This document shows positions 704-6,431 of a stretch of DNA of 6,431 bases, piece by piece (positions within the stretch are counted from its first letter, which is position 1; each line of letters starts with the position of its first letter). Position numbers and translations under genes: made by a program. Below the pieces are notes generated by a model that saw nothing but the letters and a program-made list of their open reading frames with translations, was not told the DNA's origin and made no database searches. The stretch spans positions 1 through 6,431 of the forward strand of contig JAUXGS010000054.1 in the NCBI GenBank assembly GCA_030621945.1, written 5' to 3'. The stretch is from Methanosarcinales archaeon (GTDB lineage: Archaea; Halobacteriota; Syntropharchaeia; Alkanophagales; Methanospirareceae).

Positions 704-2716
704 ATGACTAAAACAAACAACTCATATTTCCCCTTCTTGTCTATAAGAGCAGGACAACGGGAGTTTATGGACGATGTAAGAGATTCGGTAGAGTCCGAAA
801 AAATCCTTATCGCGCATGCGCCAACCGGGATAGGGAAAACCGTCGCGGCACTCGTTCCCGCCTTGCAGTACGCACTGGAAAACGAAAAAACGGTCTTTTT
901 CCTCACTTCCAAACGCAGCCAGCACAAAATAGCTATTGACACGCTCAGATTAATAAAGCAGCATACCAAACTCAATTTCGTGGCGGTTGACGTTACGTCG
1001 AAGCAATCCATGTGCCCACGTGCGACCTCTGTCTATCGGGAGTTTTATTCGTTATTCAACGAGTTTTGCAAGTCCGAGCAGAAGAATAAACGATGTCGGT
1101 ATTTCCTTAAGAGCGATGAAGAAGCACTGCGGCGGATACGAGATGACATACTGCACGTAGAGGAGTTATGTGGCTGGTGCGCAGGTAGAGGAGTATGCCC
1201 GTATAAGGCAGCTTTGGAGGTGGCTGAACGTGCTGATGTGGTCGTGTGCGACTATAACTATCTCTTTTCCCCGGACATTGCAGAAATGGTGTTAGAGAAG
1301 ATAGAAGTGGGTTTGGACGACCTCATTGTAATCGTTGACGAAGCCCATAACCTGCCAGACCGTATACGAAACAATCTAAGCAATACCTTGCGAATGAGTA
1401 CGGTAACCAGTGCAGCGCGGGAGATCAGGTATATAGACCGCGAAATGTACGGCAATCTCATGGAATTGGAAAAGATCTTCACGAAATTGGCTCTGGAAGC
1501 GAGTAAAAACAAAGCGGTAGAGATAGGGGTGGAGCGGGATTTTCTGCTGGAAGAGATGGAGAAGGTGTTGCGGCGGAGAATAGAAGCAATAAGTTATGAT
1601 GATTTCGTCAACACGCTTCAAAGCATTGCCGAAGACCTTGAGACCACCGGCGAGGCTAAAACCGCTGGGAGCACAAAAGATGTGTTCTCCGCAGAAGAGA
1701 AACGCATACTCAAAACCTTGAAAAAGAGCCGCGATAGCTCGATAAGAACTACGAGAAGCCCAAGATATAAAAAAGAGAAAGAGACGGCGCAGCGGAATAT
1801 CATCAACGTGGCGGAGTTCTTAGACGGATGGAGAACAAGAGAGAAATGTGTAAGGATATTTTCGCTTGTGCCGCGAGAGAATCCAATGCTTTACTTCAAA
1901 CTGCTTGACCCCTCGGTGATAAGTGCGCCAATATTCGCACGGGTGCATGCAACCATAATGATGAGCGGCACGCTATGCCCTACAGAGATGTATGCCGATG
2001 TGCTCGGCGCTACGCCTGATCGAATCAAAGGCAAAGAGATACTTATGCGGGAGTACAGGTCGCCGTTTCCAGAGGAGAACCGGCAGATTGTGGTTACAGC
2101 TGAGCTCACAACGAAATATACGGAACGAGGCGAAGAGATGTATATGAAGGTAGCCGGGAAGATTAGTGAAGTGGCTAAATACGTAAAAGGCGGCATGGCG
2201 GTATTCTTCCCGTCTTACGCGCTTCTCAAAGACATTGCTACATATTTGCCGGAGGACGTAAGAAGTCGGGCGCTGGTGGAGCGGAGGAAGATGAATAAGG
2301 AGGAGAAAAATAGGCTTTATGAGTCGTTACGGGATACTACTGGGGGAATATTACTCGCCGTGCAGGGCGGGTCGTTCTCCGAAGGCTTGGATTATGAATC
2401 CAACACGCTAAAGGCGATTATCGTCGTTGGAGTGCCGTTGAGCCCGCCAACGCTGGAGGTAAAAACGATAGAAGGCTATTACACGGGTAAATACGGCGCG
2501 GAAAAGGGACGGCTGTACGGTTATCTCCACCCCGCGGTTACGAAGGTGCTGCAAGCGGCGGGCCGCGGTATAAGAAGCGAGCAAGACCGATGTATCGTTG
2601 TTCTGATGGATTACCGATTCGCCCAGTTTCCGTATAAACAGTGTCTCCCTTCGGATTACAATGTTACCTTTACCGATCGAGCAGAAGTACTGTGTAGAAA
2701 ATTCTTTCTTACATGA
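704..2716 (+). CDS. xpd: XPD/Rad3-family iron-sulfur DNA helicase (superfamily 2)
   Basis: This 670-residue protein has the full XPD/DinG helicase order. An RAGQREFM motif at 15-22 is followed by Walker A APTGIGKT (39-46), TSKRSQH (motif Ia, 68-74), the DEAH box (212-215), SGTL (421-424), GSFSEGLDY (556-564) and the arginine-finger motif QAAGRGIRSEQDR (617-629). Cys104, Cys122, Cys131 and Cys165 line up by spacing and context with the four 4Fe-4S ligands of human XPD: the first two are 17 residues apart in both, then RCRYF and GVCPY match human HCRFY and GWCPY. Two more cysteines, 156 and 159, are extra. Residues of roughly 225-410 would form the Arch domain; 335-365 is very basic. XPD enzymes unwind DNA 5' to 3'; in archaea the repair role is presumed. 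An in-frame stop at 680-682 precedes the ATG, so 704 is the first possible ATG start. No Shine-Dalgarno motif is evident. A DinG-like assignment within the same family is the main alternative. Confidence 0.93.
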   Translation: MTKTNNSYFPFLSIRAGQREFMDDVRDSVESEKILIAHAPTGIGKTVAALVPALQYALENEKTVFFLTSKRSQHKIAIDTLRLIKQHTKLNFVAVDVTSKQSMCPRATSVYREFYSLFNEFCKSEQKNKRCRYFLKSDEEALRRIRDDILHVEELCGWCAGRGVCPYKAALEVAERADVVVCDYNYLFSPDIAEMVLEKIEVGLDDLIVIVDEAHNLPDRIRNNLSNTLRMSTVTSAAREIRYIDREMYGNLMELEKIFTKLALEASKNKAVEIGVERDFLLEEMEKVLRRRIEAISYDDFVNTLQSIAEDLETTGEAKTAGSTKDVFSAEEKRILKTLKKSRDSSIRTTRSPRYKKEKETAQRNIINVAEFLDGWRTREKCVRIFSLVPRENPMLYFKLLDPSVISAPIFARVHATIMMSGTLCPTEMYADVLGATPDRIKGKEILMREYRSPFPEENRQIVVTAELTTKYTERGEEMYMKVAGKISEVAKYVKGGMAVFFPSYALLKDIATYLPEDVRSRALVERRKMNKEEKNRLYESLRDTTGGILLAVQGGSFSEGLDYESNTLKAIIVVGVPLSPPTLEVKTIEGYYTGKYGAEKGRLYGYLHPAVTKVLQAAGRGIRSEQDRCIVVLMDYRFAQFPYKQCLPSDYNVTFTDRAEVLCRKFFLT

Positions 2717-4242: not shown

Positions 4243-6431
4243 ATGAAACGATTTGAAGTAGGGATACGGGATGCGAACGATGAAGAATTGAGCAGTATAA
4301 GTGAAGGTATGGGTCTTTCGCTCAATTTGGAAGAGATGCGCAGAGTACAGCGTTATTTCGCAGCGAAAAAGCGAGAGCCAACAGATGTAGAACTCCAGAG
4401 TATTGCACAGGCGTGGTCGGAGCATTGCTGTTACAAGAGTTCGAAAAATGTATTACAGAAGTTCATTTTTGGGATAGAAGCGCCGCAGAATATGTTAGTG
4501 ATAAAAGAAGATGCGGGCGTCCTGGAATTTGACAAGGATCACGCGTATGTTTTTGCCTTCGAGAGCCATAACCATCCCTCGGCAATAGAGCCTTACGGTG
4601 GTGCTGCAACAGGAATAGGGGGCATAGTCAGGGATGTAATCTGCATGGGCGCGCAGCCGATTGCGTTGATTGACCCTTTATTCTTCGGCCCGTTGGATTA
4701 TGCGTATGACCAACTTCCTGCAGAGGTGAAGCATCCGCGGTTTTTGTTTAATGGTGTTGTTGCAGGGATAAGCGACTACGGGAATCGTATAGGCATTCCA
4801 ACATGCGCGGGTATGGTTTATTTCGATGAAGGCTACGTGGGCAACTGCGTGGTGAACGTCGGCTGCGTAGGAATAATGAAGAAGGCTGATTTGAGCAGAA
4901 GCATGGCGAAGCACGGTGAAGTGCTTGTCTTGGTTGGCGGGAAGACAGGGCGAGACGGTATACATGGGGTTACCTTTGCTTCGGTGGAGCTGACGGGTGA
5001 GGAGGAATTCAGAAGCGCAGTTCAATTGGGTGACCCGATAACTAAGGAACCACTCATGCATGCGATACTGGAAGCGAACGGGAAGAGGTTGATAAGTGGG
5101 ATGAAGGATTTTGGTGGCGGTGGCTTGTCCTGCGCAGTGAATGAGATGTGCCATGCAGGTGGATGCGGTGCTGAGATTCACTTAGAGCGAGTGAAGTTGA
5201 AGGAAGAGGGTCATAGCGCATGGGAGATCTGGGTTGCTGAATCACAGGAACGGTTTTTAATCGCGGTGGAGCCGGATAACGTGGACGAATTACTGGCAGT
5301 ATTCGAGAAATGGGATGTAGACGCCGTGGCTATAGGTCAAACACAAACTTTTAAGAAAAGTTTGATCAAAAACGCTTCGCAACAAACTTTAGGAAAGTTT
5401 GATCAAAACGCTCCTCAGATAACGATCTTTTACGATAACGAGAAGATATTTGAGCTGGAGACGGATTTCCTTGTCTCCTGTCCTGTTTATACGCGTCCGA
5501 TGGAGGTGAGGCGGGAAGAGAAAGAGAAGTTCATGGCAATAGAAGAGCCGGTCGACTATAACGAAACGTTAAAACGATTGCTTTCCGCTCCGAATATCGC
5601 ATCCCGGGAATCTGTTATAAGACAATATGACCACGAAGTGCGAGCTTCTACGGTAATAAAACCGTTGCAAGGGCTATTAGGAAAAGAGACGCATGGCGAT
5701 GCAGCAGTGATAAAGCCGTTAGAAGACTCTTATAAGGGACTTGCGATTACTTCGGATGTGAATCCGTCCTTTTGCAGACTAAACCCGTTTTGGGGCGCGG
5801 CAAGTGCGATAGACGAGGTGTGCAGGAATTTGACTGCGGTAGGCACAGTTCCTCATGCGTTTGCCGACTGCTTGAACTTCGGTAATCCCGAGAAGCCGGA
5901 CAGGATGGGTGATTTCTATGAATGCTGTCGTGGTCTCGGCTACGTGGCATCCGCACTTGGAGTGCCGTTTGTTAGCGGGAACGTGAGTTTTTATAATGAA
6001 TCTGCAGCGCTGAAAGAATCCATTCCTCCTACGCCTACCATTCTGGGCATCGGGCTATGCGAGGACGTGCGAGAATGCGTTACGGTGGACATGAAGGAAG
6101 CGGGCAATCAGTTGTATGTGGTAGGGGAAACGAAAGCGGAGTTAGGCGGGAGTGAGTATTGCAAGTTACGAGGTGTAGATGGCGGTATTGTGCCGAGGAC
6201 CGATCCAGCGGTGCTGAGCAGGAGTATGGAATCGTTACGAGAAGCGATGAAGATGGGCGTAATAGCGAGTTGTCATGACGTTTCCGAAGGTGGTCTTGCG
6301 GTTGCGGTATGCGAGATGTTATTAGGCGGGGATATTGGCGCTTCTATTGATATTGCAGGTGTAAATCCGGAACTGAGAAGCGATTATAAGTTGTTCTCCG
6401 AGTCGAATTCGAGATGGGTGGTGGAGGTGTG
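4243..6431 (+). CDS. purL: Phosphoribosylformylglycinamidine synthase subunit PurL (C-terminus cut by window edge)
   Basis: PurL converts formylglycinamide ribonucleotide to the amidine using ATP and ammonia supplied by PurQ with PurS, in purine synthesis. The window holds 729 codons; the small archaeal/Gram-positive PurL is usually a little over 700 residues, so only the end is missing. Motifs in order: AWSEHC (57-62, His61 in the catalytic region), ESHNHPS (107-113), GGAATGIGG (119-127), the VGGKTGRDGIHG glycine-rich loop (231-242), QLGDPITKEP (261-270), KDFGGGGL (288-295), GDAAV (485-489), SGNVSFYNES (578-587) and HDVSEGGLAVAV (678-689). There is no fused PurS or PurQ domain at the N-terminus and neither gene is in view. 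Residues 368-392 are an unusual insertion made of two palindromic repeat units, in a loop after VAIGQ and before ITIFYDNEKIFEL. An in-frame stop at 4222-4224 precedes the ATG at 4243. There is no Shine-Dalgarno motif. Confidence 0.96.
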   Translation, partial: MKRFEVGIRDANDEELSSISEGMGLSLNLEEMRRVQRYFAAKKREPTDVELQSIAQAWSEHCCYKSSKNVLQKFIFGIEAPQNMLVIKEDAGVLEFDKDHAYVFAFESHNHPSAIEPYGGAATGIGGIVRDVICMGAQPIALIDPLFFGPLDYAYDQLPAEVKHPRFLFNGVVAGISDYGNRIGIPTCAGMVYFDEGYVGNCVVNVGCVGIMKKADLSRSMAKHGEVLVLVGGKTGRDGIHGVTFASVELTGEEEFRSAVQLGDPITKEPLMHAILEANGKRLISGMKDFGGGGLSCAVNEMCHAGGCGAEIHLERVKLKEEGHSAWEIWVAESQERFLIAVEPDNVDELLAVFEKWDVDAVAIGQTQTFKKSLIKNASQQTLGKFDQNAPQITIFYDNEKIFELETDFLVSCPVYTRPMEVRREEKEKFMAIEEPVDYNETLKRLLSAPNIASRESVIRQYDHEVRASTVIKPLQGLLGKETHGDAAVIKPLEDSYKGLAITSDVNPSFCRLNPFWGAASAIDEVCRNLTAVGTVPHAFADCLNFGNPEKPDRMGDFYECCRGLGYVASALGVPFVSGNVSFYNESAALKESIPPTPTILGIGLCEDVRECVTVDMKEAGNQLYVVGETKAELGGSEYCKLRGVDGGIVPRTDPAVLSRSMESLREAMKMGVIASCHDVSEGGLAVAVCEMLLGGDIGASIDIAGVNPELRSDYKLFSESNSRWVVEV
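5344..5376 (+). repeat. Palindromic repeat unit 1
   Basis: The arms caaactttt (5344-5352) and aaaagtttg (5356-5364) are perfect 9-base complements around the loop aag. The tail atcaaaaacgct (5365-5376) follows. Across the arm/tail join the 10 bases tttgatcaaa (5361-5370) form a second perfect palindrome. Confidence 0.85.
5383..5412 (+). repeat. Palindromic repeat unit 2
   Basis: The arms caaacttt (5383-5390) and aaagtttg (5394-5401) are perfect 8-base complements around the loop agg. The tail atcaaaacgct (5402-5412) is one A shorter than in unit 1. The tttgatcaaa palindrome recurs at 5398-5407. Relative to unit 1, one base pair of the stem and one tail base are gone, three bases in total, so the purL frame is kept. 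Confidence 0.85.

Follow-up and report, generated by a model that had tools for sequence, protein, structure and literature searches.

Palindromic elements that are translated are known chiefly from Rickettsia and related bacteria. Wolbachia palindromic repeats, like the Rickettsia palindromic elements (RPEs), are dispersed palindromes that lie in frame within protein genes. RPEs measure 105-146 bp and occur in frame in at least 19 protein genes, as well as in the tmRNA and RNase P RNA genes (excerpts of PMC2229807 and PMC10969869). In-frame fusions are also formed by other bacterial MITEs (PMC10969869, same excerpt).

Here, we analyzed a 6,431-nt stretch of DNA (the window) whose purL gene contains a palindromic repeat, A, twice. 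The two tandem copies belong to a repeat of 36-39 bp that is dispersed through the genomes of this archaeal family; it is likely a non-autonomous selfish element, and its in-frame copies would be translated as a disordered loop. The host probably belongs to the methane-oxidizing ANME-1 group.

Like RPEs, A is palindromic, dispersed and present in many copies; it lies in frame in unrelated, conserved protein genes as well as in intergenic regions and RNA genes, and is absent from some orthologues (compared with excerpts of PMC2229807 and PMC10969869). Unlike the 105-146-bp RPEs (PMC2229807, in part), most complete copies of A span 36 or 39 nt. In addition, A is archaeal, occurs in tandem and nested with other palindromes, and also occupies a tRNA intron and the 3' ends of tRNAs. 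The parallel with Rickettsia drawn by an earlier, sequence-only reading of this DNA thus stands for dispersal and for in-frame presence in unrelated genes, and falls short for unit size. The analogy is apt insofar as A would work like RPEs, which is a likeness in function.

Two further systems resemble A in part. The Borg repeats of Methanoperedens also have open-frame units divisible by three and disordered stretches, but they are tandem direct repeats, whereas A is dispersed, palindromic and located on contigs with core genes (excerpts of PMC9879509). The coding palindromes of Nematomorpha mitochondria are likewise inverted repeats within translated genes; unlike A, they reach 284 bp, and both arms encode conserved residues (excerpts of PMC6649704). 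Literature searches covered archaeal palindromes, including intragenic ones, and ANME-1 or Methanophagales palindromes, MITEs and repeats; among the matches listed, represented by titles and the starts of abstracts and including few subscription papers, A was undescribed.

Two tandem palindromic units within purL

The features of the locus are as follows.

4243..6429, plus strand: purL, the host gene, 729 codons, truncated by the contig end
5338..5343, plus strand: CAAACA, directly upstream of unit 1, from DNA comparison of purL loci
5344..5382, plus strand: unit 1 of the palindrome (39 nt), which reads QTFKKSLIKNASQ in frame; 9-bp stem, AAG loop, ATCAAAAA and tail CGCTTCGCAA (length class 21+8)
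5383..5418, plus strand: unit 2 of the palindrome (36 nt), which reads QTLGKFDQNAPQ in frame; 8-bp stem, AGG loop, ATCAAAA and tail CGCTCCTCAG

Together, the 39- and 36-nt units span 5344-5418, or PurL residues 368-392. The hairpin of unit 1 lies at 5344-5364 (CAAACTTTT-AAG-AAAAGTTTG) and that of unit 2 at 5383-5401 (CAAACTTT-AGG-AAAGTTTG), following a common plan of a CAAACTTT...AAAGTTTG hairpin with a 3-base loop, then ATCAAAA(A) and lastly a short GCTTCGC tail. With the preceding T, the CAAACA upstream reads TCAAACA, which is common to several occupied purL relatives and is possibly the remnant of an older repeat copy. Two tandem, AT-rich hairpin units in the purL frame had been described at 5344..5412. 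Both units are present in an open frame, and the GC content of 5344-5412 is 31.9%, compared to 49.6% in the remaining purL, where only one non-overlapping 69-nt segment equals it in AT-richness. The start is unchanged, while the end moves six bases further to 5418, since the units run in frame through 5344-5382 and 5383-5418. The fold of 5344-5412 scores z = -3.8 as single-stranded DNA and z = -2.0 as RNA. Elsewhere in the window, no further repeat copies were found with up to three mismatches allowed.

The open frame at 4243-6429 is free of stops and matches TIGR01736 (PurL) with 825 bits. Outside the insert, dN/dS values of 0.095-0.115 against five relatives indicate purifying selection on purL. 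Aligned to Thermus thermophilus PurL (3VIU), the window protein shows a 20-residue gap at the insert. An AlphaFold model was based on 27 of the purL sequences read here; of the 30, it left out two long frames, one of which contains an intein domain, and a frame that is extended at the N-terminus. It gives a pLDDT below 50 for residues 371-388, between strands 361-368 and 392-397, and above 80 for the blocks flanking the insert. Overall, the model is poor (mean pLDDT, 49.6); a fold search with it ranked PurL structures first at a TM of ~0.36, and it is therefore not relied on in its entirety. The predicted translation product of the in-frame copies is a disordered loop at the surface, and the structural comparison agrees with the loop position assigned to residues 368-392 by the sequence-only reading.

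The purL site in relatives

PurL matches were obtained in 55 of 59 genomes, and 30 purL loci, including that of the window, were read; all 30 frames are stop-free. Between conserved PurL blocks, the segment after strand VDAVVIG varies widely. An A palindrome, a second palindrome unrelated to it (B, AAACCTTTCTTTA...AAGAAAGCTTTACCAAAGA), or both occur at 14 of the 30 loci; another six contain remnants that are ambiguous, and 10 lack both palindromes.

A, whole or partial (11 loci): L052, L054-L057, L060, L064, L065, L071, L072, L077
B (4 loci): L053, L061, L064, L079
Ambiguous remnants (6 loci): L063, L066-L070
Neither (10 loci): L058, L059, L062, L073-L076, L078, L080, L081

These 10 loci have only a short segment between the conserved blocks, as the sequence-only reading had stated for other PurL proteins. 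Ordinary conserved PurL sequence is ruled out as an explanation, since the insert is absent from those 10 loci (six others being ambiguous). Within the genus of the window, G000 has two A units, G003 has one and G005 has B instead; dS between the G000 and G005 genes is 0.19, with a dN/dS of 0.115. At L064 (G022), an A unit is nested inside the loop of a B unit.

One relative's purL (L077, G008:C264, 1330-4851, minus strand) has a large in-frame insertion carrying intein splicing and LAGLIDADG domains (PF14890, PF14528). The purL frame of L079 (G024) is similarly long.

Dispersal of the repeat

The 14-nt core of A, AAAGTTTGATCAAA, has 10 exact copies in the draft genome of the window (1.19 Mb, 231 contigs, 56% complete) and the reversed control none; palindromes of the form CAAACTTT-N(0-20)-AAAGTTTG number 12, and again none for the control. 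In 36 genomes of the same family, the core sums to 405 copies and is present in 33, the three genomes without an exact core all being drafts. Outside the family, five copies were found in 3 of 23 genomes. The core thus occurs in 36 of 59 genomes, over all of which the reversed control has a single match. Seven of the eight draft genomes of the genus carry 6-18 cores each, with the maximum of 18 in G003 and none in G004. That the units belong to a dispersed family had been proposed from this locus alone and is borne out by these counts. A chance palindrome is ruled out by the reversed-sequence controls. In a named genome collection, a longer A pattern matched 16 stretches, of which seven are titled ANME-1 or Methanophagales, seven Methanosarcinales archaeon and two archaeon only. 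A 25-nt A pattern had no matches in viral_contigs.

A total of 141 distinct exact cores was surveyed, with the purL loci L052-L081 excluded and orthologous copies counted separately. The sample comprises the own genome, the copies of eight other genomes almost in full (for G022, 22 of 23; the G003 purL copy is counted only among the purL loci), first matches elsewhere and named contigs. Copies lie both inside and between genes and, in addition, within or beside tRNA genes.

Copies in other protein genes

Open frames of at least 110 codons contain 48 of the 141 cores, 40 in sense and eight in antisense orientation (other criteria give 37). In total, 38 host frames were found, and 20 besides the window purL were scanned with Pfam; 14 had a match and six had none, so some of the open frames may not be genes. 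Copies lie in frame in about ten protein families.

Sense hosts: PurL, glutamate-synthase-like (two sites), NnrD/YjeF, TraB, PaREP1, tRNA splicing endonuclease EndA, Mre11/SbcD-like, F430 synthase CfbE, prephenate dehydratase PheA, UbiA prenyltransferase, and a DUF1847 frame, where the copy lies close to the start
Antisense hosts: a diphthine-ammonia-ligase/asparagine-synthase-like fusion and an L15/L27A-like frame

As at purL, occupancy differs between orthologues: some CfbE genes have A and some do not, and PheA genes have zero, one or two A units, or B. Five PheA copies (L258, L260, L263, L264 and L267) replace host residues, and simple insertion fails to explain them because the net gain is one codon.

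In ANME-1 GoMg2, a PaREP1-type gene, known by its flanking residues, carries two tandem units (L094, ~1961-2030, minus strand). The second unit brings a stop into the expected frame, and the gene may have been damaged by the repeat.

Unit length, reading frame and orientation

Within open frames, each of the 22 complete copies measures 36 or 39 nt; 18 are in sense orientation and in one common frame, and four are antisense. The 36-nt class consists of a 19-nt hairpin followed by ATCAAAA, and the 39-nt class of a 21-nt hairpin followed by ATCAAAAA. Outside open frames, 25 of 32 complete copies have one of these lengths, and all seven exceptions are found here. Against a one-third chance this gives p ~3e-7; however, the copies derive from two source sequences and are hence non-independent, so the proportion may only mean that both sources are frame-compatible.

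Tail-typed A copies lie in sense 24 times and in antisense three times, again as non-independent copies. Each consensus unit has one open frame in sense; in antisense, the 39-nt unit has two and the 36-nt unit has one. Because antisense frames are open too, stop codons do not account for the sense excess. Peptides encoded in sense are more hydrophilic (GRAVY of -0.9 and -1.2, compared to 0.3, 1.6 and -0.5 for antisense), and selection on the protein may therefore explain the excess. Between co-directional genes, 16 intergenic A copies point along and seven against the genes, an orientation bias that is only suggestive. All eight stem pairs are intact at 65 of 98 sites; the stem changes over these sites comprise six compensated, 11 G-T and 42 broken pairs, and two-sided stem covariation is weak.

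An A subtype with the tail GATCAAAGAA mostly has longer stems (CAAACTTTCTTT...AAAGAAAGTTTG). It is intergenic in 28 of 32 cases and has no sense bias (L007, L010, L037, L042, L044, L046 and others).

Copies within tRNA genes

Six cores lie inside the intron of tRNA-Arg(CCT) in five genomes, one of which has two tandem exact cores, and all six are in sense orientation. A seventh, antisense core lies within a doubtful tRNA-Glu prediction. Matches to the tRNA-Arg(CCT) anticodon arm number 46, in 44 of 51 genomes. Among the 30 of these loci that were read, the intron is absent from 10, contains or equals A in nine and is of another kind in 11, some of which are perhaps diverged A copies. At L181 and L194, only the 3' part of A is present, beside other palindromes. 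In the predicted pre-tRNA fold, the repeat hairpin forms the tip of the intron stem, and both the intron position and the fold at the anticodon loop fit an archaeal tRNA intron. In Thermoproteales, highly similar sequences in the introns of different tRNAs mark transposed tRNA introns (Fujishima 2010, as related in part of PMC4090602). Unlike these, A is not confined to introns but also occurs in protein genes and at the 3' ends of tRNAs; it is surely tRNA-intronic only in tRNA-Arg(CCT).

Since A extends the intron stem of a tRNA, the coding copies could likewise be mRNA introns, cut at a bulge-helix-bulge by the tRNA-splicing endonuclease to leave a PurL protein without the loop. We regard this as very improbable: all 22 complete open-frame copies are multiples of three and all 30 purL frames are stop-free, and a spliced intron would not need to keep the frame. 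We infer instead that the A copies are translated and not spliced from the mRNA.

The tRNA-Arg introns at L178, L181 and L194 contain additional palindromes, namely AAGCCCTTACAGGGCTT with its variants and GC-rich hairpins such as CGGGGCGGAGCCCCG. Palindromes of these further kinds are also present in CfbE of G031 (L230).

Copies at tRNA 3' ends

Fifteen of the 141 cores lie within approximately 8 nt 3' of a tRNA gene, all on the tRNA strand, compared to ~0.15 expected if 46 tRNAs per 1.5 Mb are assumed. The tRNAs are nine Gly, two Ile and one each of Pro, Tyr, Arg and Leu; because many of the 15 are orthologous, the six acceptor types are the safer number of sites. This enrichment is what would be expected of a DNA or RNA signal, for tRNA 3'-end processing or termination, for protein binding or of an uptake-sequence-like kind, with the coding copies as tolerated by-products. 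The inner TTTGATCAAA of the hairpin, a perfect palindrome, fits such a signal as well. However, occupancy varies among close relatives at the purL, PheA, CfbE and tRNA-Arg sites, copies nest and repeat in tandem, and three of the family drafts have no exact core, and we consider a functional signal an unlikely account of A. The nesting of copies and their turnover at fixed sites speak for insertion.

Further palindrome families

The B core, AAAGAAAGCTTTACCAAAGA, has 13 sites in the own genome with up to three mismatches, and its control has none. B sites include L053, L061, L064, L079, L242, L247-L249, and G000:C213, C73 and C87, among others; one own-genome site, on C225, overlaps an A copy. 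A and B have insertion sites in common in PurL and PheA. Since B is read as KPFFKKESFTKE in PurL and as NLSLKKKALPKKH in PheA, which are two different frames, its peptide is not the conserved feature. The additional palindromes in the tRNA-Arg introns and in CfbE suggest that several such families exist.

Discussion

From the comparison of occupied, empty and replaced sites, we infer that A is mobile. In the proposed scheme, the palindrome would insert, duplicate in tandem and be replaced; coding copies would survive where the frame is kept and the site is a loop, and selection would retain only loop copies with tolerable, hydrophilic peptides. By eye, no clean target-site duplication is evident at purL, PheA or CfbE.

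Bacterial REP elements offer one model for such movement. They are multicopy palindromes of 20-40 bp, a size range that includes A, and are sometimes intragenic (excerpts of PMC3733652), so that A could be a REP element mobilized by a Y1 transposase of the RAYT type. Against this, the consensus units show no GTAG or CGTC tag on either strand by eye, in-frame copies are frequent, and the Y1 transposase PF01797 was matched in none of the eight draft genomes of the genus (56-98% complete), though seven of these carry A cores; in the family, it was matched in 29 of 51 genomes. We therefore rate a REP origin as extremely unlikely.

The tandem insert is better viewed as a non-autonomous selfish repeat, for which the orientation of the copies bears on the route of spread. 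Leaving the doubtful tRNA-Glu aside, sense orientation holds for 6 of 6 copies in the tRNA-Arg intron, 15 of 15 at tRNA 3' ends and 40 of 48 in open frames. As it also holds in the tRNA contexts, where there is no peptide, an RNA-level route is conceivable: a tRNA-intron-like hairpin, cut out of tRNA transcripts or joined to them by the splicing endonuclease and ligase, would enter other transcripts in sense and be copied back into DNA. This route would explain the orientation at all three kinds of sites. We give this route a low probability. A DNA-level route in which copies are selected as terminators or for processing would be no less simple.

Compared with what was noted from this locus at first, the association with tRNA genes, the B family, the nested copies and the bias towards sense are additional. 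A adds an independent case, in uncultured archaea that probably belong to ANME-1, of small palindromes colonizing core enzymes, the intron of a tRNA and the 3' ends of tRNAs. At purL, the site series comprises empty, single, tandem, nested and replaced states, which would allow the insertion, loss and tolerance of peptide inserts to be dated. In addition, the repeat poses a testable question, namely, which enzyme or RNA pathway moves a unit of 36-39 bp.
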